From positions 1-38,495 of IMG/VR virus record IMGVR_UViG_3300027782_000169: 38,495 nt of DNA. The stretch is one strand, 5' to 3'. Position numbers and translations under genes: made by a program. Below the pieces are notes generated by a model. The model saw nothing but the letters and a program-made list of their open reading frames with translations, was not told the origin of the DNA and ran no database searches. Origin of the DNA: a virus. Positions 3,803 to 37,467 of this stretch are shown here, in pieces (position 1 is the first letter of the stretch; the number at the start of each line of letters is the position of its first letter).

Positions 3803-4690
3803 ATGTTAGATTACTTACATCTTCCAAAACAACAAAACGGAAATATAGATTATTTTCCAGGATTTTCAAATACTTCTGGAGGTTCTTGGGTTGTATGGGA
3901 AAAACCAAAAGGAACTCAAATGATACGCATTACTTGTATTGGTGGTGCTCAAGCAGGTGGTGATGGTACTTATGTTTCCAGTTCTTCTGCTACTGGTGGT
4001 CAAGGAGGAGGAAGTGGTGGAGTAACAATTTTAACTATTCCTACTTATGTTGTTCCAGATATTCTTTATGTAAGTGCAGGTGTTGGTCAAACTAACACTG
4101 CTCAAAATATATCTGCTGCTGGTTCTTATGTTGGTATTGCTCAAACTACAGGAGCAATTTATACTATTTGTTATGCCAATGGAGCAAGTACTGGATTAAC
4201 TGGTGCTACTGTTGCAACACAAGCAAATATGCTTTTATCATCTTATGGAAATTTTAATGCTCTTGCTGGACAAAATGGTGCTGCTTCATCTGGAACTGAT
4301 ATTACTTATCCAACCACAGGACTTTTAGTATCTGGTGGAGCAAGTGGAGGTAGTGCTCTCACAAGTTCTGGACTAAATGGTGGAGGAATTACTGCACCAG
4401 CATCGCAGACAAGTGTTTATAATATATTCCAAACAATTACTGGTGGTACTGGTAGCACTTCTGGTACTGTTACTGGTGGTGGAGCAGGTCATGAAATTTA
4501 TCAACCTTTATTGTCTTGTGGTGGAGGTGCAGGTGGAGGAAGTTCCAACGGAACTGCTGGTAATGGTGGTTCTGGTGGATTTGGTTCTGGTGGTGGAGGT
4601 GGTGGTGGATCTAGATTTGCATCAGGACCAACATTCCAAGGTATTGGTGGAAAAGGTGGTAATGGTTTAGTCGTTATTCATTCTTGGTAA
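3803..4690 (+). CDS. Glycine-rich tail adhesin-like protein, paralogue 3
   Basis: A 295-residue third copy, 6 nt after paralogue 2. It starts MLDYLHLPKQQNG and keeps YFPGFS, the W-x-x-KPKG motif, PDILYVSAG, YPTTGLLVSGG and a final LVVIHSW. It is shorter because loops between the Gly blocks are reduced. Tandem triplication with loop divergence fits a host-range module. After the stop come 52 nt with a late promoter box before the next gene, so this is probably the end of one transcription unit. Confidence 0.7.
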   Translation: MLDYLHLPKQQNGNIDYFPGFSNTSGGSWVVWEKPKGTQMIRITCIGGAQAGGDGTYVSSSSATGGQGGGSGGVTILTIPTYVVPDILYVSAGVGQTNTAQNISAAGSYVGIAQTTGAIYTICYANGASTGLTGATVATQANMLLSSYGNFNALAGQNGAASSGTDITYPTTGLLVSGGASGGSALTSSGLNGGGITAPASQTSVYNIFQTITGGTGSTSGTVTGGGAGHEIYQPLLSCGGGAGGGSSNGTAGNGGSGGFGSGGGGGGGSRFASGPTFQGIGGKGGNGLVVIHSW

Positions 4691-4742: not shown

Positions 4743-5717
4743 ATGAGTTTTGCAAAACTTGCATTAGAAAATGGTGGAAGTATTCATCCATTGATTATTC
4801 CAGCAGAAAAAAATAATGGATTGGGATTGATGAATCCATCTATTTACATAGACAATGGTAAAATATTAGTCAATCTTCGAGCAGTCAACTATACATTTTA
4901 TCATTCTGAAAAGAAGCTTTTTCAACATAAATGGGGTCCATTAACATACGTTCATCCAGAAAATGATTTACATTTAAGAACTGTAAATTATATTTTGGAG
5001 TTAAATGATAATTATGAGATTATACGAACAGATAAAATAGACACATCTGAATTTGATACATATGAACCATTATGGGAATTTGTAGGTTTGGAAGATGCTC
5101 GTATCTTTCGATGGGATGGAAAACTTTATACTTCTGGTGTTCGTAGAGATTTGGACAATATTGGTACTGGAAGAATGGAACTTTGTGAAATTAAAGTAAC
5201 TGAAAATTCAGTTACAGAAGTTTCTAGATTTCGTATTCCTCCACCAAATGATCCAAATTCTTATTGCGAAAAGAATTGGATGCCTATTTTAGATTTACCG
5301 TATCATTATGTAAAGTGGGGAAATCCAACAGAAGTTGTTAAAGTAAATCCAGAAACAAAATCTTGCGAAACAGTTTTTCTTGGAGAACATAAAAACATTC
5401 CAAGAGATCTTAGGGGTGGATCACAAGTCCTTTCTTGGAAAGATTATTATATTGCAATTACTCACGAAGTTGATTTGTTCAATAGTGAAGTGGGTCGCAA
5501 AGATGCTGTTTATCGCCATCGTTTGATTGTTTGGGATAAAAAATGGAATATGATAAAATGGTCTGATGATTTTTCACTTATGGATGGGCACGTAGAATTT
5601 TGTGTTGGACTTGCTCAACAAGGAAGTAACTTTCTAATGACCTTTGGATTTCAAGACAATGCAGCATATTTAATTAAATTTCCAGAATTTTTAATCGAGA
5701 ACTTTATCAATGAATAA
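4743..5717 (+). CDS. Five-bladed propeller protein, glycosidase (GH130-like) or glycosyltransferase-associated
   Basis: A 324-residue soluble protein. Evenly spaced motifs suggest a five-bladed beta-propeller of the GH43/GH130 type: MNPSIYIDNGKILVNLRAV near residue 30, WEFVGLEDARIFRWDGKLY near 115, the EKNWMPI motif near 178, RGGSQVL with ITHEV near 225, and VGLAQ with FGFQDNAAY near 298. The GLEDAR and EKNW-P elements recall GH130 phosphorylase/mannosidase motifs, so a sugar substrate is likely, but catalytic acids cannot be assigned by eye. It stands behind a late box and overlaps the next gene by 8 nt. Action on fibre-linked or host-surface glycans is an inference from position. Confidence 0.6.
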   Translation: MSFAKLALENGGSIHPLIIPAEKNNGLGLMNPSIYIDNGKILVNLRAVNYTFYHSEKKLFQHKWGPLTYVHPENDLHLRTVNYILELNDNYEIIRTDKIDTSEFDTYEPLWEFVGLEDARIFRWDGKLYTSGVRRDLDNIGTGRMELCEIKVTENSVTEVSRFRIPPPNDPNSYCEKNWMPILDLPYHYVKWGNPTEVVKVNPETKSCETVFLGEHKNIPRDLRGGSQVLSWKDYYIAITHEVDLFNSEVGRKDAVYRHRLIVWDKKWNMIKWSDDFSLMDGHVEFCVGLAQQGSNFLMTFGFQDNAAYLIKFPEFLIENFINE

Positions 5718-8562
5718 TCACACACTTGTAGAACTTTTAAATAATTTTATCAAAGATTCAGAAAATGCGGATAATAATATTCGTCTTGCTGTTTATTATT
5801 ATAATAATGGGCATACTGCATCTGCCGTTTCATATTATCTTCGAACAGCAGAAAGAACTGAAAATGATAAAGTAAAATATGAGTGCCTTCTTGGCGCCGC
5901 CATGTGCTTTGAGCAACAAGGAACTCGAAATTTTACTGTTAAAAGTTTACTGCAGAATGCTCTTACAGTATCGGCAAATCGTCCAGAGGCATATTATTTA
6001 CTTAGTAAATTTTATCGAAAAGAAGGAAACCATTATGATGCATATCTGTTAGCATCTATTGGTGAAAAAGTTGCAGAAAAAAATCCAGAACCTTTGGATT
6101 TTTATATTGGATATCCTGGATTTTATTCGATCATACTAGAAAAAGCGGAGTCAGCATATCCTTGTGGATTGTGTGATGAATCTAGAAATTTATTTTTTAA
6201 ACTTAAAGACGAATATATTTCTGATATGACTGAAGAAGATAAGAATTATTTGCAGGATAAACTGAGTAGTTTGGGTGCTCATGGTCCATCGTATCAATTT
6301 AGAACATATGAAAAGAAAGATCACTCTGAATTGAGATATAAGTTCAAAGGATCTGAAAATATTCAGAATAATCATTCTCAAGTATTTCAAGACATTTTTA
6401 TTCTTTCTATGTTGGATGGAAAGAGGGATGGAACTTTTCTTGAGATTGGTGGGGGATTTGCCTATCATAAAAATAATACGGCACTCTTGGAAAGAGATTT
6501 TGGATGGAAAGGAGTTTCAATTGAATTCAATGAAACTTGTGTAAATGACTATAAGACCTATAGACCAAATACTAATGTCTTACATGTCAATGCATTATTG
6601 ATTAATTATTCGAGATTAATCAAAGAGTATTTTGGGGATGAAAAAGTTCTTGATTATTTACAACTTGATATTGAACCATCTGCAAATACTTATGAAGCAT
6701 TACTTTCAATTCCTTTTGATGAGTATAAGTTTAGAGTAATTACTTATGAGCATGATCATTATGTAGATGTGTCAGGTTCTTATAGGGACAAGTCGAGAGA
6801 ATATCTTGCTAAAATGGGATATGAACTTGTAGTTTCAAATGTTGCCGAAGATGATGAGTCTTCTTTTGAGGATTGGTGGGTTCATCCAGATCTTATTGAT
6901 TCATCTATCCTCAATATTATGAAAGCAACTGATGATTCTGTTAAAAATGCAGGAAAATATATGCTAGGTGGTGAAGTCTTTTTGCAAGAAACTCCAAAGG
7001 AAGAAAAAATGAATGAAGAGTGGGAATGGGATTGGGGAGAAATTGGTCAATTAGAATGGTTCAAACACAGTATTATTGAAGAAGTGTTTGAACATGATAT
7101 CTATCAAAAACATTTCAGAGTGAATGAGGGTGATGTTGTTTTAGACATTGGAGCAAGTTGTGGACCATTTACTTATAAAATTTTAGATCAAAAACCATCC
7201 AAAGTTTATTGTTTTGAACCTCATAAGAGTTTATTTAAAACAATGCAACACAATCTTCAAGGAAAGGATAATGTTGTTTTAATTAATAAGGCTCTTACCA
7301 ATGTAGATTCCGAATATATTACTGCCGGACTTTTTGATATTACCTGCACAGAAACTTGGGAAAAAGAAAACCTTGCTGATGGTATTAGATTTGATACTTT
7401 CATTAGAGAGAATGATATTCAAAAAGTAGATTTTATTAAAATCGATGCGGAGGGTGGAGAATATGATCTTTTCTCTGAGGAGAATTTGCCTTGGGTAATT
7501 AAAAATGTTAAAAAGGTTGTTGGGGAATGGCATTTATCTAATGACTATTTAAAAAATAAGTTCAGAGAATTTAGAGATAACGCTTTAGTCCATTTCGATA
7601 AGACAAAGGTTAAAGCTTATGAGTGTGCATCCGAGAAAGAAATTTCAGACTTAATTTGGGAAGAAACTATTTTCTATTATCGTGAAATTATTTTATACAT
7701 TGATAATAGTGGTGAACCAGAAAAATTTTGGGATATGACTCCTTGTCCAACAATGGAATTCACAACTTCTGTTCCCAAAAAGGGATGTGTAGTTGATTGC
7801 GTATATTGTCCACAAAGGATTTTAGAAAAATCATATGTTGATGAGGAGAGGTATCTTACATTAGATAACTTTAAGAGAGCAGTAGATAAACTGCCCCAAA
7901 ATGTTAGAGTGACTTTTGCAGGATTTACTGAACCTTGGTTGAACAAAGATTGTACGGACATGGTTTTGTATGCCCAAGAAAGGGGTCATCCAATTGCAGT
8001 ATTTACAACTGGAATTGGAATGAAAGTTGATGATGTCTATAGAATCAAAAATGTCCCTTATGATTTGGGTCCGAATGGTAAATTTGTTCTTCATCTTCCA
8101 GATAATGAGAGAAGGGCAAAGCATCCTATAACTAAAAATTACATTGAAGTTTTGGAGGCATTCAAACAAGTCCATCAAGAAATACAAGGTTTTTATACAA
8201 TGGCTATGGGAACCGTTCATGATGAAGTTAAACATCTTTTCCCAGAAGCAGTTGTTCCTGCATTCTGGTCTAGAGCAGGTAATTTGGTAGGAGAAGCAAT
8301 GTTAAAACCAGAACTTCTCAATCTTCAGAGTGAATATAAGTCAATATATCATGGTGAAGAACCAAGAACTTGTGGATGCGATGAGCATCTTTATCACAAT
8401 ATAATGCTTCCTAATGGAGATGTTTCTCTGTGCTGTATGGATTATAGTCTCAAATTTATTATTGGAAATTTACTGGAACAGTCATATGAAGAAGTTGCAC
8501 CCAAACCTCAATCTTGTTATGATATTTGTAGATTTTGTGAAAATGGAGTCAAACCACAATGA
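5710..8562 (+). CDS. TPR / two methyltransferase domains / radical SAM-SPASM fusion protein
   Basis: A 950-residue multidomain enzyme. Residues about 1-170 are helical TPR-like repeats (AVYYYNNGHTASAVSYYLRT). Residues about 215-400 look like a FkbM-type SAM methyltransferase, with FLEIGGG at 243-249 and LQLDIE around D320. Residues about 470-640 are a second FkbM-like domain, with LDIGAS at 478, FEP in the next strand and IKIDAEGGE at about 577. Residues about 680-880 are radical SAM: C693-x3-C697-x2-C700 (CVVDCVYC) is the 4Fe-4S ligand motif. A C-terminal Cys cluster (C888, C890, C908, C909, C936, C940, C943) fits a SPASM/twitch auxiliary cluster. Such a protein could modify a peptide or glycan. 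The substrate is unknown; fibre modification is a guess from context. No frameshift is visible. Confidence 0.8.
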   Translation: MNNHTLVELLNNFIKDSENADNNIRLAVYYYNNGHTASAVSYYLRTAERTENDKVKYECLLGAAMCFEQQGTRNFTVKSLLQNALTVSANRPEAYYLLSKFYRKEGNHYDAYLLASIGEKVAEKNPEPLDFYIGYPGFYSIILEKAESAYPCGLCDESRNLFFKLKDEYISDMTEEDKNYLQDKLSSLGAHGPSYQFRTYEKKDHSELRYKFKGSENIQNNHSQVFQDIFILSMLDGKRDGTFLEIGGGFAYHKNNTALLERDFGWKGVSIEFNETCVNDYKTYRPNTNVLHVNALLINYSRLIKEYFGDEKVLDYLQLDIEPSANTYEALLSIPFDEYKFRVITYEHDHYVDVSGSYRDKSREYLAKMGYELVVSNVAEDDESSFEDWWVHPDLIDSSILNIMKATDDSVKNAGKYMLGGEVFLQETPKEEKMNEEWEWDWGEIGQLEWFKHSIIEEVFEHDIYQKHFRVNEGDVVLDIGASCGPFTYKILDQKPSKVYCFEPHKSLFKTMQHNLQGKDNVVLINKALTNVDSEYITAGLFDITCTETWEKENLADGIRFDTFIRENDIQKVDFIKIDAEGGEYDLFSEENLPWVIKNVKKVVGEWHLSNDYLKNKFREFRDNALVHFDKTKVKAYECASEKEISDLIWEETIFYYREIILYIDNSGEPEKFWDMTPCPTMEFTTSVPKKGCVVDCVYCPQRILEKSYVDEERYLTLDNFKRAVDKLPQNVRVTFAGFTEPWLNKDCTDMVLYAQERGHPIAVFTTGIGMKVDDVYRIKNVPYDLGPNGKFVLHLPDNERRAKHPITKNYIEVLEAFKQVHQEIQGFYTMAMGTVHDEVKHLFPEAVVPAFWSRAGNLVGEAMLKPELLNLQSEYKSIYHGEEPRTCGCDEHLYHNIMLPNGDVSLCCMDYSLKFIIGNLLEQSYEEVAPKPQSCYDICRFCENGVKPQ

Positions 8563-11576: not shown

Positions 11577-13484
11577 ATGGCAATTGGAGTATTTGGTCTA
11601 CAAGTTGCTTATAGATTGAAGAGACTTGAGGTGATGAGTACTGATAATACTCACGGTTGGTTTGGTGGTGGAAATCCTTTTCCAGGATATTCAACAGTAG
11701 AACGTATAGATTTTTCTAATGATTCTGCAACTGCATCAGTTAGAGGTCCATTAAGTTCAGTAAGATATATTTTATCCGCAACAGGAAACTCTAATTATGG
11801 TTGGTTTGGTGGTGGGTCTTCTCCTGGACGAGTATCAACAGTAAACCGCATAGATTTCTCTAATGATTCGGCAACAGCATCAGTAAGAGGTTCATTAAGT
11901 TCTGCAAGAAGTAATTCAGCAGCAACAGGAAACTCTAACTATGGTTGGTTTGGTGGTGGATATAATCCTACACCAGCAAGAGTATCAACAGTAGACCGTA
12001 TAGATTTCTCAAATGATTCTTCAACGGCATCACCAAGAGGTCCATTAAGTTTAGAAAGAAGTACTTTAGCAGCAACAGGAAACTCTAACTATGGTTGGTT
12101 TGGTGGTGGTTTTCCAGGACCATTATCAACAGTAGACCGTATAGATTTCTCTAATGATTCTTCCACGGCATCAGTTAGAGGACCATTAAGTTCGGCAAGA
12201 GGATATGTAGTAGCAACAGGAAACTCTAACTATGGTTGGGTTGGTGGAGGACAAGGACCATTATCAACAGTAGAGCGTATAGATTTCTCTAATGATTCTT
12301 CAACAGCATCTTCAAGAGGTCCATTAAGTTTAGCAAGATCTAGTCATGCAGCAACAGGAAATTCTAACTATGGTTGGTTTGGTGGTGGTAATGGTCCATC
12401 AACAGTAGACCGTATAGATTTCTCTAATGATTCTCCCACGGCATCAGTAAGAGGTCCATTAAGTTTAGCAAGAAATAATTTAGCAGCAACATCAGGACAG
12501 GCAAAAGGACCAGCAATCAAACTGCAAAAGTCAGGGAATTATGGTTGGTTTGGTGGTGGTCAAGGTGACAGTCCAGTTGTGATATTAGCAACAGTGGACC
12601 GAATAGATTTTTCCAATGATACTCCAACAGCATCACCAAGAACTGGAACTTTAAGTTTAGCAAGAATGAGATTAGCAGCAACAGGAAACTCTAACTATGG
12701 TTGGTTTGGTGGTGGTTATGGACCTTTAATACATCAAAAAATAGTAGATCGCATAGATTTTTCTAATGATTCTGCATCAGCATCAGTTAGAGGTCCATTA
12801 ATTACGGAAAGATCCAACTTAGCAGCAACAGGAAACTCTAACTATGGTTGGTTTGCTGGTGGAAATAGTGGACTATCCTCTGTTGTTACTTCTCAACCAG
12901 AGTTAGCAGTAGTAGAACGTATAAATTTCTCTAATGATTCTGTATCAGCATCAGTTAGAGGTCCATTAGGTTTAGGAAAAAGAACTGGACTAGCAGCAAC
13001 AGGAAACTCTAACTATGGTTGGTTTGCTGGTGGTCGTGCAACAGTCCCACCATCACCGAGCATATATTATTCAACAGTAGAACGTATAAATTTCTCTAAT
13101 GATTCTCCTACGACATCACCAAGAGGACCATTAAATCAAGGAAGACATTCTTTTGCAGCAACAGGAAACTCTAACTATGGTTGGTTTGGTGGTGGTTTAA
13201 ATCCAGCATACACACCAACAACTTTATCATCAATAGACCGCATAGATTTTTCAAATGATTCTGTGTCAGCATTGGCTAGGGGTTCGTTGAGTGCAATAAG
13301 ATATAGTATGGGAGCAACAGGAAACTCTAACTATGGTTGGTTTGGTGGTGGAAAAACTCCAACATCTTCTACCAATAATGTTTATCGTATAAATTTTTCC
13401 AATGATTCTGTAGCAACATCATCAAGAGGTCTATTAAGTTCAGCAAGATATCGTCACGCAGCAACCTCCAACACCCCAACATAA
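11577..13484 (+). CDS. Kelch-like repeat protein 1, two predicted six-bladed propellers
   Basis: A 635-residue protein made almost wholly of about 50-residue repeats: GWFGGG, a variable loop, V(D/E)RIDFSNDS, TAS-x-RGPLS, a variable loop, then AATGNSNY. Aligned to Kelch, GGG ends strand 2, VDRIDF is strand 3, RGPLS strand 4 and AATGNSN strand 1. I count 12 VDRIDF units: six, then an AATSGQAKG...QKSGNYGW linker, then six more ending AATSN. Each half begins at strand 2 and ends at strand 1, the circular closure expected of a propeller. The first 30 residues (MAIGVFGLQVAYRLKR) are non-repeat. Probable virion or receptor-binding protein. Paralogues are at 14957 and 18591. Confidence 0.75.
   Translation: MAIGVFGLQVAYRLKRLEVMSTDNTHGWFGGGNPFPGYSTVERIDFSNDSATASVRGPLSSVRYILSATGNSNYGWFGGGSSPGRVSTVNRIDFSNDSATASVRGSLSSARSNSAATGNSNYGWFGGGYNPTPARVSTVDRIDFSNDSSTASPRGPLSLERSTLAATGNSNYGWFGGGFPGPLSTVDRIDFSNDSSTASVRGPLSSARGYVVATGNSNYGWVGGGQGPLSTVERIDFSNDSSTASSRGPLSLARSSHAATGNSNYGWFGGGNGPSTVDRIDFSNDSPTASVRGPLSLARNNLAATSGQAKGPAIKLQKSGNYGWFGGGQGDSPVVILATVDRIDFSNDTPTASPRTGTLSLARMRLAATGNSNYGWFGGGYGPLIHQKIVDRIDFSNDSASASVRGPLITERSNLAATGNSNYGWFAGGNSGLSSVVTSQPELAVVERINFSNDSVSASVRGPLGLGKRTGLAATGNSNYGWFAGGRATVPPSPSIYYSTVERINFSNDSPTTSPRGPLNQGRHSFAATGNSNYGWFGGGLNPAYTPTTLSSIDRIDFSNDSVSALARGSLSAIRYSMGATGNSNYGWFGGGKTPTSSTNNVYRINFSNDSVATSSRGLLSSARYRHAATSNTPT
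12532..12656 (+). repeat. 125-bp exact repeat, copy 1 (Kelch 1 unit 7)
   Basis: Identical to 19930-20054. It spans the inter-propeller linker end, GWFGGGQGDSPVVILATVDR and the next strands. The shared synonymous variants (GTGGACCGAATAG instead of the usual GTAGACCGTATAG) show recent exchange between paralogues, not only protein-level selection. Confidence 0.85.
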
Positions 13485-14956: not shown

Positions 14957-16840
14957 ATGACAATCAATAATAACAATATATTTGGAGCATTTACACTTGG
15001 AGAGGTTCGTAGTGGACGACTGACTGGTGAGTGGTTAAATAAAGAATCCGTTGCGAATTATGGTTGGTTTGGTGGTGGTTATGTTTTTCCATCAAATCCA
15101 TCTCCATATAAGTCAACAGTAGACCGTATAGATTTTTCCAATGATTCAATAACAGCATCAGTTAGAGGTTCATTAACTTCACAAAGAAGAGAATTAGGAA
15201 CAACAGGAAACTCTAACTATGGTTGGTTTGGTGGTGGCACTATTGTACCAGTAATAATTGTATCAACAGTAGACCGTATTGATTTCTCAAATGATTCTTC
15301 TACATCATTGGCAAGAAGTCCATTAAATTCGCCAAGAAATCAATTAGCAGCAACAGGAAACTCTAACTATGGTTGGTTTGGTGGAGGCACTACTCCAACA
15401 ACAGTATCAACAGTAGACCGTATAGATTTCTCTAATGATTCTTCTAATTTATTACCAAGAAGTCCATTAAGTTTAGCAAGAAGTTCTTTAGCAGCAACAG
15501 GAAACTCTAACTATGGTTGGTTTGGTGGAGGATATTTTCCAACACCAGCAACATATTCAACAGTAGACCGTATAGATTTCTCGAATGATTTAGCACAAGC
15601 ATCACCAAGAAGTCCATTAAGTTCAGCAAGAGGATATTTAGCAGCAACAGGAAACTCTAATTATGGTTGGTTTGGTAATAGTTCAAGAGTAGACCGTATA
15701 GATTTCTCAAATGATTCTTCAACAGCATCAGTTAGAGGTTCATTACTTTCATCAAAACAGAGGTCAGCAGCAACAGGAAACTCCAACTATGGTTGGTGGG
15801 GTGGTGGTTTCCCAGCAGTAGCAACAGTAAACCGTATAGATTTTTCGAATGATTCTTCAACAGCATCACCCAGAGGTGCATTGAGTGCAGCAAGATATGG
15901 TTTAGCAGCAACATCAGGAGTTCTCAATATTCGCAGACAAAAAGCAGGGAATTATGGTTGGTTCGGTGGGGGTTCTCCTGGCCCATTAGCAACAGTAGAC
16001 CGTATAGATTTTTCTAATGATACTGTTACTGGACCATCATTAATAAGAGGTCCATTAACTTCAGCAAGATATAGTTTAGCAGCAACAGGAAACTCTAACT
16101 ATGGTTGGTTTGGTGGAGGTGCCACACCAACAACAGATAGAGTAGAACGTATAGATTTTTCAAATGATTCTTCAACAGCATCAGTTAGAGGTCCATTAAG
16201 TTTAGTAAGAACTGATCACGCAGCAACAGGAAATTTTAACTATGGTTGGTTTGGTGGTGGTTTTTCACCATTCTTATCAAACACAGTAGACCGTATTGAT
16301 TTCTCAAATGATTCTTCTACATCATTGGCAAGAAGTCCATTAAGTAGTGTGGGAAGATCTAATCAAGGAGCAACAGGAAACTCTAACTATGGGTGGTTTG
16401 GTGGTGGTTTTCCAGGACCATTATCAACAGTAGACCGTATAAATTTTGCAAATGATTCTTCAACAGTATCAGTTAGAGGTCCATTAAGTTTAGTAAGATA
16501 TCATTTAGCAGCAACAGGAAACTCCAACTATGGTTGGTTTGGTGGAGGTGAAAATCCAGCAAACATACCAGCAACAGTAGCAACAGTAGACCGTATAGAT
16601 TTTTCCAATGATTCTGTATCAGCATCAGTTAGAGGTCCAATAGGTGCAGCAAGATATAGAGCAGCAGCAACGGGAAACTCTAACTATGGTTGGTTTGGTG
16701 GTGGTAATATTCCAGGACCATCAGTAGTAGCAACAGTAACTCGTATAGATTTCTCCAATGATTCGGTAACAGCATCAGGAAGAGGAGCATTAAGTGCAGC
16801 AAGACAAAGATTAGCAGCGACATCAAACACTAACAAATAA
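14957..16840 (+). CDS. Kelch-like repeat protein 2, two predicted six-bladed propellers
   Basis: A 627-residue paralogue of the proteins at 11577 and 18591. After a 38-residue leader (MTINNNNIFGAFTLGEV) come 12 VDRIDFSNDS units, again split six and six by AATSGVLNIRRQKAGNYGW. Unit 4 ends GWFGN and unit 5 has the shortest strand 2-3 loop, while unit 6 opens GWWGGG; the rest keep GWFGGG. Variation is concentrated in the loop after GGG and in the loop after RGPLS, the two loops expected on one rim and side of a Kelch propeller. Units 2 and 9 share a long identical DNA stretch, pointing to gene conversion inside the gene. Confidence 0.75.
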   Translation: MTINNNNIFGAFTLGEVRSGRLTGEWLNKESVANYGWFGGGYVFPSNPSPYKSTVDRIDFSNDSITASVRGSLTSQRRELGTTGNSNYGWFGGGTIVPVIIVSTVDRIDFSNDSSTSLARSPLNSPRNQLAATGNSNYGWFGGGTTPTTVSTVDRIDFSNDSSNLLPRSPLSLARSSLAATGNSNYGWFGGGYFPTPATYSTVDRIDFSNDLAQASPRSPLSSARGYLAATGNSNYGWFGNSSRVDRIDFSNDSSTASVRGSLLSSKQRSAATGNSNYGWWGGGFPAVATVNRIDFSNDSSTASPRGALSAARYGLAATSGVLNIRRQKAGNYGWFGGGSPGPLATVDRIDFSNDTVTGPSLIRGPLTSARYSLAATGNSNYGWFGGGATPTTDRVERIDFSNDSSTASVRGPLSLVRTDHAATGNFNYGWFGGGFSPFLSNTVDRIDFSNDSSTSLARSPLSSVGRSNQGATGNSNYGWFGGGFPGPLSTVDRINFANDSSTVSVRGPLSLVRYHLAATGNSNYGWFGGGENPANIPATVATVDRIDFSNDSVSASVRGPIGAARYRAAATGNSNYGWFGGGNIPGPSVVATVTRIDFSNDSVTASGRGALSAARQRLAATSNTNK

Positions 16841-29827: not shown

Positions 29828-29983
29828 ATGAGTTTGAGTAAAGAAGAGTTTGAGGAAATGGATGTTTTGCGTAAGGCAATCTCACAAAATCCAGCATACG
29901 TTCATCCAGATAGACAAGAAAGATTTACTGAACTTTTTGTAAAATCACTTTCATATGTTAATTCTCCTGCATCTAATAAATAG
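29828..29983 (+). CDS. Small hypothetical protein
   Basis: 51 residues: MSLSKEEFEEMDVLRKAISQ, then NPAYVHPDRQERFTELFVKS and a short polar tail. It has a clear ribosome site (GAGGA) and its own promoter. Helical and acidic. Its TAG stop lies inside the late promoter box of the next gene. Not recognised. Confidence 0.55.
   Translation: MSLSKEEFEEMDVLRKAISQNPAYVHPDRQERFTELFVKSLSYVNSPASNK
29976..29982 (+). promoter_or_regulatory. T4-type late promoter box
   Basis: ATAAATA overlapping the stop of the previous gene, 24 nt before the ATG at 30006. It marks the change from early-type to late-type transcription. Confidence 0.6.
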
Positions 29984-30005: not shown

Positions 30006-30686
30006 ATGATTTCCGAAGCAACTAAAAGAGAAAAAGCTGCAAATGCTTTCTTAGCCGCAACGATGGCTCTATCTGCCGCACAATCTCCTAAAGACTTCGT
30101 AAGAACAGGAAATATTGAAAGTCCTGGTGTTGCTCTGATGCAAACTTGGGGAAGAAAGAGAGGAGAAGCGGAAAGAAATCTAGACAGTGGAAGAGTTTCA
30201 CATCCAGCAAGAAATCGTAAGAAAATGAAAACACTCAAAGAGTTTTTAGGAGAAGCATACCTTTACGAGATGCGTAAAGAAGATAAAGTTGCTGGTAAAA
30301 AGAAAACACCACTCACTTTACCTGTAACTACCAAGCACGCTAGAAAGGATGAAAGTGGTAATTGGAAAGTAGAGAAATTAGTCACCCAAAGAGCAAATCC
30401 AGAAGCACAAATGGGTAGATTTAAGCAAGGACGAGGAATGCCTGGAGACCCAGTTCATCATACCTATAGCACCGAAGGTGGAACTAGTCGTGGTCCAGGA
30501 TTTGGATATGTACCACAACCACACGGAGAAGGTGGAGCACTTCGTGGTAAGAAGAAAGTTCCAGGAGAGAAAACTGAACGTGCTTGGAATGATAGAACAC
30601 CTGCAAAGAAGGTTGCTGATAAGAGAGCAAAGGAAGCCTATCGTAAATCCGGTGGATACGACTACAGGAGGGGGTATGGAAGATGA
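30006..30686 (+). CDS. Probable capsid cargo protein with internal capsid-targeting-like motif
   Basis: 226 residues. The first 73 residues (MISEATKREKAANAFLAATM and on) are Ala-rich and helical. At residue 74 (base 30225) an ATG begins MKTLKEFLGEAYLYEM, which matches the T4 capsid-targeting consensus with a gp21-type cleavage point after L-G-E. The remaining 150 residues are very basic and Gly/Pro-rich. Either the true start is 30225 (153 residues) or the targeting motif is internal; the late box at 29976 and a normal leader favour 30006, motif homology favours 30225. Basic, disordered and late-expressed, as expected of an internal head protein. Function unknown. Confidence 0.6.
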   Translation: MISEATKREKAANAFLAATMALSAAQSPKDFVRTGNIESPGVALMQTWGRKRGEAERNLDSGRVSHPARNRKKMKTLKEFLGEAYLYEMRKEDKVAGKKKTPLTLPVTTKHARKDESGNWKVEKLVTQRANPEAQMGRFKQGRGMPGDPVHHTYSTEGGTSRGPGFGYVPQPHGEGGALRGKKKVPGEKTERAWNDRTPAKKVADKRAKEAYRKSGGYDYRRGYGR

Positions 30687-31372
30687 AAACTTTTAGAGAG
30701 TTTATTGCTGAAGCAAATAAACACGGAATTGATGCCGATTTACATTCTAAGTGGTTATCTGATGCAGAGAAAGCATATACAGAGACTGGAACAATTAAAG
30801 GTATATCACAACAAACACATAATGGAATTAATTATGTATTGAGACCAAAAGGTTATTATAAAAATGGAAGACCTAGATTTGCAATTACCCCTAAAGACTC
30901 CAAAAAGGAAACTGAAGAAAAAAGACAAGCAATGATAAAAGATTTATCATCAAAAGATGATATAAAGAAAGCTAATAAAAAAGCCAGAAAGTTATCTGCA
31001 GTCAAACTTGAAGTTCATCATATTACTCCATTAGAAAAATCGGCAGAACTCAAAGCATCTATGAGCCCCGAACAATGGGCAGAACGAGTAAGACGTGATG
31101 CTGAAGAAGGTATATATCATGGACATCATCATAAAAACTTAATGGGCGCAGTAGGACCAAAAACACCAGCAAAAAGAAGAATAAGAACTGCTATTGCACA
31201 TACAGCAGCACACAATTTAGAAAAAGAAGCAGAAGATTTTTTACCTGGACATGTTCATGGTAAAAGTTTACTTGCTGCAGGAAAGAGAAGAGAACTGGAA
31301 AAACATGTTGGACCATTCCAGTCTACTTTACTGAGAAGAGAAAGGGAAAAAGAAAGGGAAGCAAATAAATAA
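30683..31372 (+). CDS. Capsid-targeted HNH-like nuclease
   Basis: 229 residues with a strong ribosome site (AGGAGGGGG) and a 4-nt overlap with the previous gene. MKTFREFIAEANKHG is nearly the T4 internal-protein signal MKTYQEFIAEA; cleavage is expected after I-A-E (residue 10). The core has an HNH-like pattern: L-E-V-H112-H113-I-T-P-L, then GHHHKN with H148-H150 and N152, then H173 and H177 in AHTAAHN. The order His-His ... Asn ... His matches beta-beta-alpha-metal nucleases, though the spacing is unusual. The tail is Lys/Arg/Glu-rich. Packaging a nuclease for injection into the host is the natural reading. Activity is unproven. Confidence 0.7.
   Translation: MKTFREFIAEANKHGIDADLHSKWLSDAEKAYTETGTIKGISQQTHNGINYVLRPKGYYKNGRPRFAITPKDSKKETEEKRQAMIKDLSSKDDIKKANKKARKLSAVKLEVHHITPLEKSAELKASMSPEQWAERVRRDAEEGIYHGHHHKNLMGAVGPKTPAKRRIRTAIAHTAAHNLEKEAEDFLPGHVHGKSLLAAGKRRELEKHVGPFQSTLLRREREKEREANK
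31365..31371 (+). promoter_or_regulatory. T4-type late promoter box overlapping a stop codon
   Basis: ATAAATA with the TAA of the HNH-like gene at 31370-31372; ATG of the next gene at 31386 is close (about 15 nt). Confidence 0.5.
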
Positions 31373-31385
31373 TCAAAAAAGATAT

Positions 31386-32834
31386 ATGAAAACCTTTCAA
31401 GAGTTCATTTTAGAGTGTGAGTTAGTTGAAGGATACGAACCACTTCCAAGTGGGAATAAATATACGGGAATGTTAGGGGCAATAAGTCGTAAATCTCGTC
31501 AAGCTAAGTTGTATGCTCACAAAAGAAGAGTTACTGGTGATGAAGGTAGATTTGGAACTTTGCTTAAGAAAAATGCATCTCAAATTAAAAAACTGAAGTC
31601 TGTGATGAGAAATCACGACCCTATTGTAAGTAGATTTAAAGAACTTGAAAATCAAGATAGAGGAGAAAAAAAATCAAAAACTAAATTAGAAAAAGATTAT
31701 GAACTTTCTTCTGATGGAAAATATCGTAAAAGAAGTAGAGTAAAAGAAGAAGTAGATATTTACGACATAGAAGAAGGTAAAGTGGAGTGGGATAATCCTA
31801 AGAAACCACTTCAATCTGGACTAACTCCAAGAGAAAAGAATAGAGCAAAAAGGATTTCTACTGGAGTTGAAGACCCAAATAGAATTCCAAGTGAAAGAGA
31901 TTTGGAAAGATATGGAAAGTTAAAGATTGCTCACGATGATGAGAAAGGAAAAAAAGTTCCATCAAATAAAAGACATAGATTTGGAAAAGATTTTCAAACA
32001 GACGAAACTGAAGGACAATATAGGAGAAAATGGAACGACCACAAAGATGTTCCTGACTCAAAAAGGAACGAAATTTATCGTAAAAATCTAAAAGAACCAA
32101 AGGAAAGTTTTGAATATGAACTAGAAGAGAGTTCTACTGGTGAAAGGACCAGAGGTAGAGCAACTCTTGCTCGTGGTCGTGGTGCTGATATGGATAAGCA
32201 AGAAAGAACTACAGCATCAGTCGCAAAGAAAGCAGGACTGAAAGGAACTGGTAAGTATTCCACTAAAGATTTGAGAAAGAGAGCAAGAGATTATACGACT
32301 TATGATAGTGAAGATACTGATGATGATTATGGAAGCACAAAGCAAGACCATTTCATTCGCACCTATTCATCAGCAAGAAGAGCAGCAAAAGGTGAAAGAC
32401 TTATCACTAAAATGAAACCAGCAGGAAGAACTCCAAGGGGAATGACTAAACTCAAATCCGCACCTTCAAGTGAAAGTGTAAGAAGAGTGAAAGATTTGAA
32501 AAAACAAATGACTAAATCTGGTGCTTCTAAAACTGGAAGAGTTCATACTGTAGATATTATGCACCGAGATGGTGATGTTGGTAAAGGTGATAGAACCCAA
32601 CAGATGGAAAGAGGTAGAAACTTTATTCAAGCAATCAAAGATACTCCAAAACACTTGAAGAAAGCAGGAGCAAAGAAAGGTGATACTGTAATTGGAAAAC
32701 CAACAGCAGTTATGCCTGGTGAGGATAAGAAAACTGGTGAAGCAAAGAGAGGAAAACTTTATAAGAAAATCTTTGGTAAGAAATCTACCAAAGCATCTCC
32801 CAAAACAGGACTTATGACTGGTAAAGTGGAATAA
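31386..32834 (+). CDS. Large basic capsid-targeted protein
   Basis: 482 residues. It starts MKTFQEFILECELVEGYEPL, a capsid-targeting motif with Glu sites for the prohead protease after I-L-E and L-V-E. The rest is Lys/Arg-rich and mostly disordered. Residues about 122-175 contain VDIYDIEEGKVEWDNPKKPL, then QSGLTPREKNRAKR and TGVEDPN; the protein at 34137 has the same segment. Several E-E-x or L-x-E points could give further cleavages. The net positive charge suggests DNA binding inside the head. Function after injection is unknown. No frameshift seen. Confidence 0.65.
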   Translation: MKTFQEFILECELVEGYEPLPSGNKYTGMLGAISRKSRQAKLYAHKRRVTGDEGRFGTLLKKNASQIKKLKSVMRNHDPIVSRFKELENQDRGEKKSKTKLEKDYELSSDGKYRKRSRVKEEVDIYDIEEGKVEWDNPKKPLQSGLTPREKNRAKRISTGVEDPNRIPSERDLERYGKLKIAHDDEKGKKVPSNKRHRFGKDFQTDETEGQYRRKWNDHKDVPDSKRNEIYRKNLKEPKESFEYELEESSTGERTRGRATLARGRGADMDKQERTTASVAKKAGLKGTGKYSTKDLRKRARDYTTYDSEDTDDDYGSTKQDHFIRTYSSARRAAKGERLITKMKPAGRTPRGMTKLKSAPSSESVRRVKDLKKQMTKSGASKTGRVHTVDIMHRDGDVGKGDRTQQMERGRNFIQAIKDTPKHLKKAGAKKGDTVIGKPTAVMPGEDKKTGEAKRGKLYKKIFGKKSTKASPKTGLMTGKVE

Positions 32835-34136: not shown

Positions 34137-34727
34137 ATGAAGACATATAAACAGTTTATAACCGAGGCACGAGAAACATATTTGGATGTTTATGAAGGTA
34201 AAGTGCCTTGGAATGACTCAAAATATCCTTTACAAAGTGGGCATACTCCAGCAGAAAAAAATAAAGCAAAAAGATCAAGAACTGGTGTAGAAGATCCAAA
34301 CAAACATCAGATGGATATAAGTGATAAAGATATGGCTAGATACGGTGGAATGAAGGAAGTTGATGATACTGAAACCTCTAATGCTCCCAAACAAAAGAAA
34401 ACTTTATTGGGTAAAAAGAAACCATTAGAACATAAAACTCCTCCTCACGAGTTTAAAAAAGATAGAAGATTAGATACAACAAGAACTGATAATCAATATG
34501 GTATGAGTCAATCTGCCAAAGGTGGTGGAGGAAATGCTACTAGGGGTCAAGCAAGAAGATACGTAGGAGGAAAGTTTAAAGGCAATGCAGATTGGGCAGA
34601 TAGTAATATCTTTCCATCCCCAATAGAACAAGGTGATACAAGAAAAAGAACTCCTAAAAAATGGGGAGGTCCAAATCCCAAAGAACTAACAAAAAGTCAT
34701 CCAATTGTTAGAAAAACACGCAAATAA
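34137..34727 (+). CDS. Basic capsid-targeted protein
   Basis: 196 residues. MKTYKQFITEARETYLDVYE is a clear capsid-targeting start; cleavage is expected after I-T-E. Directly after it lies EGKVPWNDSKYPLQSGHTPA, then a Lys-rich stretch and TGVEDPNK, homologous to the middle of the protein at 31386. The remainder is Lys/Arg/Gly-rich and disordered (GGGGNATRGQARRYVGGKFK). Late-expressed from its own box. Probably packaged with the DNA; activity unknown. Confidence 0.65.
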   Translation: MKTYKQFITEARETYLDVYEGKVPWNDSKYPLQSGHTPAEKNKAKRSRTGVEDPNKHQMDISDKDMARYGGMKEVDDTETSNAPKQKKTLLGKKKPLEHKTPPHEFKKDRRLDTTRTDNQYGMSQSAKGGGGNATRGQARRYVGGKFKGNADWADSNIFPSPIEQGDTRKRTPKKWGGPNPKELTKSHPIVRKTRK

Positions 34728-35588: not shown

Positions 35589-36053
35589 ATGGGAAAACCT
35601 AGAACTTATACTGATAATCAATTTATTGATGCGGTAAAAACATCTACTAGTGTAAGACAAGTATTAGCAAAACTTGGTCTAAAAGAAGCAGGAGGCAATT
35701 ATAAAATTGCTCAACAAAGAATAGAAAAACTTGGTATTAGTCTTGCTGATGGTGCTAATGGACAAGGATGGAGCAAAGGAAAAAAACTTGGACCTAAAAA
35801 ACCAATTGAATTCTATCTAACAGAAAATTCCCATCACCAATCATACAAACTCAAACTTCGTCTAATTGCCGAAGGAATAAAAGGACATAAATGTGAAGAA
35901 TGTGGTATAATTGAATGGAGAGGAAAACCAACTCCAATTGAATTGGACCATATAAACGGAAATCATCACGACAATCGTTTGGAAAATCTTCGTTTATTAT
36001 GCCCTAACTGCCACGCACAAACTGAAACTTACCGAGGAAAAAACAAAAAATGA
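35589..36053 (+). CDS. HNH endonuclease, probable homing type
   Basis: 154 residues. N-terminal DNA-reading region with VRQVLAKLGLKEAGGNYKIA, a helix-turn-helix-like motif common in free-standing phage HNH enzymes. The C-terminal HNH-zinc domain has C102-x2-C105 (CEECG), then D120-H121-I-N-G-N, N133 (NRLEN), and C138-x2-C141-H (CPNCHA). Catalytic His, Asn and His positions are all present, so it should be active. It sits 48 nt after the intron-bearing tRNA and overlaps the next gene by 4 nt (ATGA). It could help spread the intron or its neighbours, though it lies outside the intron. Confidence 0.85.
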   Translation: MGKPRTYTDNQFIDAVKTSTSVRQVLAKLGLKEAGGNYKIAQQRIEKLGISLADGANGQGWSKGKKLGPKKPIEFYLTENSHHQSYKLKLRLIAEGIKGHKCEECGIIEWRGKPTPIELDHINGNHHDNRLENLRLLCPNCHAQTETYRGKNKK

Positions 36054-36631
36054 TTACCATTGAATATTTGAAAACTGTCTGCGAAATCCAGTGGGATTGG
36101 AATAATATCCTTGGAGCAATAAAAGAAGTATATGCTGACAAAGGATTTAAAAGTAGAGCAGACAATTTCCTTCGTTCTAGAATTGTTGAGTTGTGCTTAC
36201 CTGCTTTTTCTTCAATTATTCATATTGATGAAGATGGTATTGATTTTGAATTAACAGTTGATGGGATGAAAGTATTCATAGAAGGTAAATTCGGGCAAGG
36301 ATATCTCCTAAAAAGAGGAGGAACTAGCAAAATAAAAATGAAAAATTATTATGGAAAAATCAATGATGAAACTTTTGAAAAATTCAAAAGTGAAACAAAA
36401 CTTGATTATTTGATGATTGTTGATACAAAATATTATAAAGTTGCTCTTACTACAAGAGAAATAGCACAAAAATACTATTTTACTTCAGGTGATGGTGTTA
36501 AAACAGTAATTCCAGAAAATGAATTGGTATATTTGGATTTGGATATTTCTAACTTTACATTTCCATCTTCTGGTGTTAAAATTTCTCAAGTATTAAATGA
36601 AGTAATCACGGATTGGATTAAGAACCGATGA
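36050..36631 (+). CDS. Candidate restriction-type nuclease (PD-(D/E)XK-like)
   Basis: 193 residues. N-terminal helices (KSRADNFLRSRIVELCLPAF) are followed by a strand pair with D65-F-E-L-T-V-D-G and F-I-E78-G-K80-F, which is the D...ExK order of PD-(D/E)XK nucleases. KIKMKNYYGKINDETFEKFK is a Lys-rich, possibly DNA-contacting stretch, and LDYLMIVDTKYYKVALTT is a further core strand pair. It overlaps a D12-class adenine methyltransferase by 4 nt, the usual layout of a type II restriction-modification pair. No family name can be given; the match is at motif level only. Confidence 0.5.
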   Translation: MITIEYLKTVCEIQWDWNNILGAIKEVYADKGFKSRADNFLRSRIVELCLPAFSSIIHIDEDGIDFELTVDGMKVFIEGKFGQGYLLKRGGTSKIKMKNYYGKINDETFEKFKSETKLDYLMIVDTKYYKVALTTREIAQKYYFTSGDGVKTVIPENELVYLDLDISNFTFPSSGVKISQVLNEVITDWIKNR

Positions 36632-37467
36632 AACAGTTTCCACTCAAAACTTGCTTGCGTTATCCCGGAGGCAAGAGCAAAGCACTCAAAACTCTTGCTC
36701 CTTGGTTTCCTAGTGATTTCAAAGAGTTCCGTGAACCCTTCTTGGGTGGTGGAAGTATTTCTTTAATGGTTTCGCAGAACTATCCAAAAGTTCCTATCTG
36801 GGTCAACGACAAGTATTTTTACTTGTATAACTTTTGGGTTCAACTTCGTGATAACGGACAAGTTCTCAAAGATAAACTAAGAGCAATCAAAGAAGAAGTG
36901 AATGGTGATGATAACGCACACCAAGAACTCTTTGATGATTACTCTCATACGATTGGTAATCTTGAACCATTAGAACAAGCAGTTGCGTTCTTTGTAATGA
37001 ATAAGTGTTCTTATTCTGGTCTTACAGAGAACTCAACATTTTCAGTTCAAGCATCACGGTCCAACTTCTCATTAGTTGGTATTGATAAACTTCCACGATA
37101 TTCTTATATCATTAAGGATTGGAAGATTACTAATATTGACTATGAAGAAGTGATGAACGCAGAGGGTGATGATGTGTTTGTATTTCTTGACCCACCTTAT
37201 GATATTAAGGATTTCCTTTATGGAACTGGAAGAAAACTTCACTCGTCATTCTCACACGAAAGATTTGCTGATGATGTGGATAAATGCCCTCATCGTTTTA
37301 TGATTACTTACAATCTTAATGATTGGTTGTTAAGTCGTTATAAAGAGTATAATATAGATGAATGGAAGTTGAGGTATTCTATGGTTCATCGTGGTGAAAA
37401 AGGAACACAAGATAATGTGAAAACCGAGTTGCTGATTACGAATTATAAACTTGATACAGTTTTATAA
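36628..37467 (+). CDS. DNA adenine methyltransferase, D12/Dam class
   Basis: 279 residues. Motif order typical of the Dam/DpnM class: Y12-P-G-G-K16 (LRYPGGKSK), E36-P-F-L-G-G-G42 for SAM binding, NKCSYSGLTENSTFSVQASR in the recognition region, and catalytic D188-P-P-Y191 in FLDPPYD. It would methylate N6 of adenine, probably in a short palindrome; the target cannot be read from sequence. It may protect phage DNA from host enzymes or from the neighbouring nuclease. Late-expressed together with the two genes before it. The TAA stop is part of the next late box. Confidence 0.88.
   Translation: MKQFPLKTCLRYPGGKSKALKTLAPWFPSDFKEFREPFLGGGSISLMVSQNYPKVPIWVNDKYFYLYNFWVQLRDNGQVLKDKLRAIKEEVNGDDNAHQELFDDYSHTIGNLEPLEQAVAFFVMNKCSYSGLTENSTFSVQASRSNFSLVGIDKLPRYSYIIKDWKITNIDYEEVMNAEGDDVFVFLDPPYDIKDFLYGTGRKLHSSFSHERFADDVDKCPHRFMITYNLNDWLLSRYKEYNIDEWKLRYSMVHRGEKGTQDNVKTELLITNYKLDTVL

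Follow-up and report, generated by a model that had tools for sequence, protein, structure and literature searches.

The CTS-nuclease gene and its neighbours

The window analysed here, i.e., the whole stretch of 38,495 bases, is a virus record that represents a fragment. It encodes a CobS-like protein sharing 68-71% identity with those of Synechococcus phages, which makes a T4-like cyanophage the most likely identity of the virus. One of its genes encodes a protein whose N-terminus reads MKTFREFIAEA, which an earlier note on this DNA had taken for a capsid-targeting signal (CTS) joined to an HNH-like nuclease. The features of the locus, all on the + strand, are the following:

29975-29982, + strand: late promoter motif of the T4 type (AATAAATA), 23 nt ahead of ORF 30006 and hence ahead of the two-gene unit to which the nuclease gene belongs
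30006-30686, + strand: upstream co-oriented ORF, with an N-terminal module (ANAFLAATMALSAAQSPKDF...), an internal CTS (MKTLKEFLGEA) encoded from 30226 on, and a basic part at the C-terminus
30683-31372, + strand: CTS-nuclease gene, ATG start, 229 aa, pI 9.9
30683-30712, + strand: capsid-targeting signal MKTFREFIAE, with predicted gp21 cleavage after E10
30947-31282, + strand: AHH/HNH-EndoVII-like nuclease domain, residues about 89-200, with H112, H113, N152, H173, and H177 conserved
31364-31371, + strand: another late promoter motif (AATAAATA), which overlaps the stop codon of the nuclease gene and lies 14 nt ahead of the CTS gene that follows
31386-32834, + strand: adjacent CTS protein (MKTFQEFILE), 482 aa, with a very weak Pfam Ntox28 match (E=0.03, below the cut-off)
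34137-34727, + strand: protein with a CTS-like start (MKTYKQFITEA)

The start codon of the nuclease gene overlaps the stop codon of ORF 30006-30686 (ATGA), and a good Shine-Dalgarno sequence, AGGAGG, lies about 9 nt 5' of it. Values of dN/dS of about 0.14-0.5 for the nearest homologue pairs indicate purifying selection; the all-pairs value (median 0.63) was set aside because near-saturated pairs dominate it. Three more ORFs of the cluster carry such a signal, at 30226 (inside ORF 30006), 31386, and 34137. In the first of these, as in the related loci L001, L036, L041, and L017, a module of about 70 residues (ANAFLAATM.SAAQSPKDFVRTG...) precedes the internal CTS, and the C-terminal domains differ. 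Since many relatives (e.g., L001, L036, and L041) also have this module ahead of their CTS-nuclease, domains have probably been shuffled between neighbouring genes, with modules, signals, and C-terminal domains apparently being exchanged. The 31386-32834 protein, which has a basic domain, is encoded syntenically beside the nuclease in relatives, and a single ORF of L145 contains its domain twice. Distant homologues of this protein occur in tandem in Synechococcus phage S-SRM01, where a nuclease homologue was not detected. Elsewhere in the window, two paralogous large proteins are encoded at 11577-13484 and 14957-16840, both matching phrog_19111 (E about 1e-118).

The ATAAATA core of the late promoter motif is present at 14 sites on the coding strand of the window and at none on the other. 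Most of these sites are followed by a start codon at a distance of 14-72 nt, among them those at 29976, ahead of the 30006-30683 pair, and at 31365, ahead of the gene starting at 31386. Their total number is within chance, as 25 of 100 shuffled sequences reach 14, and it is their strand and position that appear notable. Among relatives, ATAAATA is found within 90 bp upstream of 33 of 50 nuclease ORFs, with about one expected, and this motif suggests that the nuclease is made late. Contigs of relatives with these loci additionally encode the gp21 protease (PF03420, in 6 of 12) and gp23 (PF07068, in 4 of 12); the window fragment itself yielded no head gene, gp21 being seen in relatives only.

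The nuclease domain

The pattern reported in the earlier note, HH-x-TPL followed by HHHKN and HTAAH, is indeed present, at residues 112-117 (HHITPL), 148-152, and 173-177 of the protein. In an alignment of 51 domains of the same family, which are 20-53% identical to that of the window, H112, H113, G147, and N152 are invariant, and H146, H173, and H177 are conserved in at least 90% of the sequences. The signature of the Tox-AHH family, which has the HNH/EndoVII fold, consists of [AG]HH followed by N, H, H, and Y (PMC3482391). Its [AG]HH, N, H, H part is matched here, with AHH or GHH in many relatives and VHH in the window protein. The proposed HNH-like nuclease is thus supported by residues at the spacing of the AHH branch that are conserved across the 51 domains, whereas the Pfam matches stay below the cut-off. 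The search of HNH and toxin nuclease families that the earlier note had suggested gave matches for relatives, with Pfam AHH matching 8 and HNH_2 matching 13 of the 51 domains, but not for the window protein, which has no match over threshold in Pfam, PHROGs, or NCBIfam. The best AHH match, that of L060 (E=4e-4), scores 20.7 bits against a gathering cut-off of 22.3, and L018 matches HNH_2 at 0.006. Weak PHROGs matches of the window protein are to an internal head protein (0.018) and to HNH (0.077).

In the AlphaFold model, the HH pair ends the first strand, N152 lies just before the second, and H173 and H177 are at the start of the following helix, while a two-helix insert (residues 117-141) separates the two strands. 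This order of secondary-structure elements and the placement of the residues fit a His-Me finger (beta-beta-alpha); pLDDT is 91-97 in the core as far as strand 2 and about 63-77 in the H173-H177 helix. On an HNH fold, for which the earlier note had looked to structure prediction, the answer is mixed: the predicted secondary structure fits with high local confidence, but Foldseek gave no significant match, either in the PDB or in BFVD. One viral Foldseek match had a probability of 0.99, yet with E=0.05 and a TM score of 0.3 it is not significant. Two other candidates were rejected: sequence matches in the PDB to mL86 were weak (0.02-0.05, with one profile) and disappeared with the domain profile, and a PADLOC match to AbiEii (0.005) came from a single member over a helical stretch and was taken as chance.

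From its residues and predicted fold, the domain very probably belongs to the HNH/EndoVII superfamily, and membership of AHH proper is probable. The protein is like Tox-AHH (Pfam PF14412; PMC3482391) in its HH, N, H, H pattern and in the sub-threshold Pfam match of its relatives. It differs from it by VHH instead of [AG]HH, by a head-targeting signal in place of a secretion leader, by the two-helix insert of the model, and by its surroundings, as no immunity family was recognized beside the nuclease gene.

The targeting signal and its pairing with the nuclease

The first 10 residues of the T4 internal protein IPIII suffice for packaging, and experimental mapping of the T4 CTS assigned residues 4 and 7 to targeting and residues 8 and 10 to processing, with gp21 cleaving after L/I-x-E (PMC9026906). 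The window signal matches these determinants with F4, F7, I8, and E10, and includes a gp21-type cleavage motif followed by a small residue (IAE/A); in relatives this motif is V-x-E, often with L-I-E a few residues further on. F4 and E10 are found in all 35 aligned relatives and neither was demanded by the pattern used to choose these sequences, which did demand E6, F7, and I/L/V8. A CTS-type run at the extreme start of a protein is far beyond chance.

To keep the choice of sequences independent of the signal, viral contigs were searched with the nuclease domain alone. This yielded 60 loci with 46 distinct homologous ORFs, 43 of which have an intact 5' end, and the strict signal is present in 36 of these 43, which, together with the T4 determinants, bears out the reading of MKTFREFIAEA as a capsid-targeting signal. 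Among the others, L212 has a variant signal (KTFKEFFEE), in the two-domain protein of L223 the signal lies at the far N-terminus, those of L241 and L242 are degenerate, and any trace of it is absent only in L236, L240, and L245. That the CTS and the HNH/EndoVII (AHH-like) domain form a conserved link, and not a chance association, is therefore well supported by these sequences, and the retention of the pairing in related viruses suggests that a pre-made nuclease is injected with the phage DNA. One feature speaks against a packaged nuclease: in many relatives the CTS is internal, after the module of about 70 residues and without a methionine of its own, and in this it differs from the N-terminal CTS of T4.

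The genomic setting of the nuclease gene is of at least three kinds. It follows small conserved genes in the window, L036, L041, and L017, and lies beside uvsY/uvsW-like genes in L028 and beside gp43/uvsX-like genes in L059, the gene names in the latter two cases being taken from recognizable sequence. This spread would fit a free-standing homing HNH endonuclease that had inserted by chance behind a CTS start; phages often carry HNH genes as homing elements, and the window itself has an ordinary HNH gene at 35589-36053. This explanation is nonetheless ranked low. The CTS stays in frame wherever the gene sits and in nearly every homologue, the phage HNH families of PHROGs are not close relatives of the domain, and late promoter motifs lie upstream of the nuclease. 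The 35589-36053 enzyme itself (Pfam HNH_3/HNH, above the cut-off) is free-standing and unrelated to the CTS-nuclease. Two individual loci deserve mention. In L069 (identical to L240), the nuclease domain (5230-6597) is encoded on a podovirus-like contig, beside a terminase-like gene and near a transaldolase-like gene, both identified by eye, as in a cyanopodovirus; its glycine-rich N-terminal half, found instead of a CTS, is perhaps another route into the virion. Locus L047 (2898-4490) carries two different copies of the nuclease domain.

The CTS proteins as a group are strongly basic, like the T4 internal proteins, with a median pI of 10.1 (9.9 for the window nuclease). A packaged but non-enzymatic protein would share this property, namely an ex-nuclease that binds DNA, condenses it in the head, or acts as a decoy or as a restriction inhibitor in the manner of T4 IPI*, and the best-characterized T4 CTS cargo, IPI*, is precisely an inhibitor (PMC3012670). 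Such a role is considered unlikely here, as the catalytic-type H, H, N, H, and H are conserved and most of the basic residues are not individually so.

Other cargo, predicted delivery and significance

A scan for the CTS pattern was combined with the retrieved loci. The 165 distinct CTS proteins obtained in this way fall into about 51 clusters, and their domain types include nuclease, SAM lyase, ART-like, zeta-like, GNAT, and DPBB, some of these matches being weak. According to Pfam, the signal is joined to an S-adenosylmethionine lyase in L179 (2325-2834; about 1e-15), to a lytic transglycosylase DPBB in L116 (7e-11), to a zeta-toxin-like kinase in L183 (E=0.001), to a cytidylyltransferase in L197, and to a GNAT domain in L175, with weaker matches to ART-PolyVal in L120 (0.024) and to GmrSD_C in L098 (0.025). 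The L120 protein (3965-4420) is, like that of L137 (11022-11570), one of a cluster of 16 CTS proteins that weakly resemble ADP-ribosyltransferases (ART-PolyVal) and are possibly Alt-like cargo. Further HNH-like types were recognized by eye behind the signal, one with GHxQPL...N...KKNR (L010, 5403-6143; L015; L016) and one with DHI...N...N (L146, 2660-3208); among the other HNH-like types of L010, L015, L016, L146, and L098, one shares its N-terminal half with the window protein. Anti-restriction enzymes of the SAM lyase type are known from T3, and the L179 protein is apparently an injected enzyme of this kind. Considered alongside the anti-restriction IPI* of T4, this cargo supports the delivery of effectors with the DNA. 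More generally, the same signal on unrelated proteins (SAM lyase, ART-like, zeta-like kinase, and other HNH types) looks like a shared address for injected cargo.

The reading favoured here, held with modest rather than firm confidence, is that of a late-made, capsid-loaded, gp21-trimmed AHH-like HNH/EndoVII nuclease that is ejected with the genome and most likely cuts nucleic acid on the host side. The match of F4, F7, I8, and E10, the co-conservation of signal and domain, the catalytic-type residues, and the late motifs all favour it. The protein would be synthesized late in infection, loaded by its 10-residue CTS into the prohead core, and trimmed after E10 by the gp21 prohead protease; it would then be packaged beside the DNA and ejected through the tail with the genome into the next cell. 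The mature part would act there, from the first moment of infection, as a metal-dependent nuclease, the host chromosome, a plasmid, or a resident phage genome being guesses as to its target. Packaging, trimming, and ejection are modelled in this scheme on T4, and the putative nuclease chemistry of the mature part on its family. The release of an effector in the host that the earlier note had envisaged is supported by analogy, as T4 CTS cargo is both packaged and ejected (PMC9026906).

The same note had argued that a nuclease inside a full head would need control. This worry is eased by staphylococcal nuclease fused to the T4 CTS, which enters the head but leaves the phage DNA uncut until calcium is added, the artificial phages remaining infectious until then (PMC9026906, PMC3012670). 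Self-protection of the cyanophage could come from a shortage of metal in the head, from modification of the phage DNA, or from both. A D12-class adenine methyltransferase is encoded at 36628-37467 in the window, 5 kb from the CTS-nuclease, and the distance between D12 methylase and nuclease is 2-6 kb both in the window and in those 7, among 17 contigs of relatives searched, that have the two; six of these seven are apparently syntenic, the other (L059/G003) having a different genomic setting. The methylase is a possible protective partner of the nuclease, as a lead and not as evidence.

Late expression and head targeting would equally place the nuclease in the prohead. There it could work on the phage's own DNA during packaging, by removing branches, trimming ends, or damaging packaged foreign DNA, and not in the next host. 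T4 uses an EndoVII-type enzyme during packaging, which provides a precedent. The distribution of the gene makes this improbable: it is accessory and patchy, and a role in packaging should be more widespread. In 50,697 phage records the search gave no homologue, and S-SRM01 has the neighbouring CTS family without a detected nuclease. Plasmid collections gave no homologue, and neither did 84,980 prokaryotic genomes, which were scanned with one short peptide pattern that distant homologues could escape. Action of the packaged effector on RNA, such as host tRNA or rRNA, is more improbable still. The choice of target cannot be read from the sequence and the neighbouring CTS protein has its weak similarity to Ntox28, but HNH/AHH toxins are treated as DNases.

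Among known systems, the closest to the injected nuclease proposed here are the T4 internal proteins IPI, IPII, and IPIII and Alt (PMC9026906, PMC3012670), with which it shares a 10-residue CTS with the same functional positions, a gp21-type cleavage motif, a basic protein, a late promoter motif, and diverse, poorly conserved cargo. Unlike the CTS-nuclease, the known cargo of T4 either inhibits restriction or is of undefined role, Alt being an ADP-ribosyltransferase; in addition, the signal lies behind a conserved module in many of the relatives, unlike in T4. The natural CTS-nuclease thus looks like a variant of the known T4 internal proteins that differs from them in its cargo. No paper on a natural CTS-nuclease was found in the library searched, and of the papers returned for the phrase "capsid targeting sequence" none deals with cyanophage nucleases, judged by title or abstract. 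The artificial CTS-staphylococcal nuclease of Mullaney and Black, cited in PMC9026906, likewise places a nuclease in the T4 head via the CTS, inactive until metal is supplied; it is man-made, whereas the present one is natural and of another nuclease fold. The gp210 HNH enzyme of phiPA3 is also a phage nuclease that possibly harms a competitor, in interference competition (PMC11620839); it is an intron-encoded homing enzyme, and head targeting is absent from its description in the abstract. MuF toxins combine a head-protein module with exchangeable toxin domains and are predicted to be delivered with phage DNA (PMC5576092, PMC3482391). They are, however, capsid-associated toxins of temperate Firmicutes phages, whereas the trafficking part here is the T4 CTS, in T4-like cyanophages with gp21 and gp23, and no Pfam match to the MuF domain was found in the window protein or its family.

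As in polymorphic toxin systems, one trafficking module is combined with varied C-terminal toxin-type domains across the 165 CTS proteins and their roughly 51 clusters, some of these domain matches being weak. A bolder proposal, offered tentatively and with somewhat less than even confidence, is that in T4-like cyanophages the CTS would be a general address for exchangeable injected effectors, among them several nuclease types, SAM lyase, and ADP-ribosyltransferase-like and zeta-kinase-like proteins, which would make it the capsid-delivered counterpart of such systems. The nuclease would hit host or rival DNA at time zero, and the phage DNA would be spared, perhaps by the D12 methylase.

The internal proteins of T4-like phages are among the least understood parts of the virion, with few having known roles. 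With the CTS as a simple sequence handle, injected effectors can be sought in metagenomes, and the role of internal head proteins becomes directly testable. If the reading of a packaged nuclease is true, aquatic cyanophages would carry ready-made nucleases in the virion head, and the delivery of these would precede the expression of any phage gene. This would bear on the takeover of the host chromosome, the escape from defence, and the exclusion of rivals.
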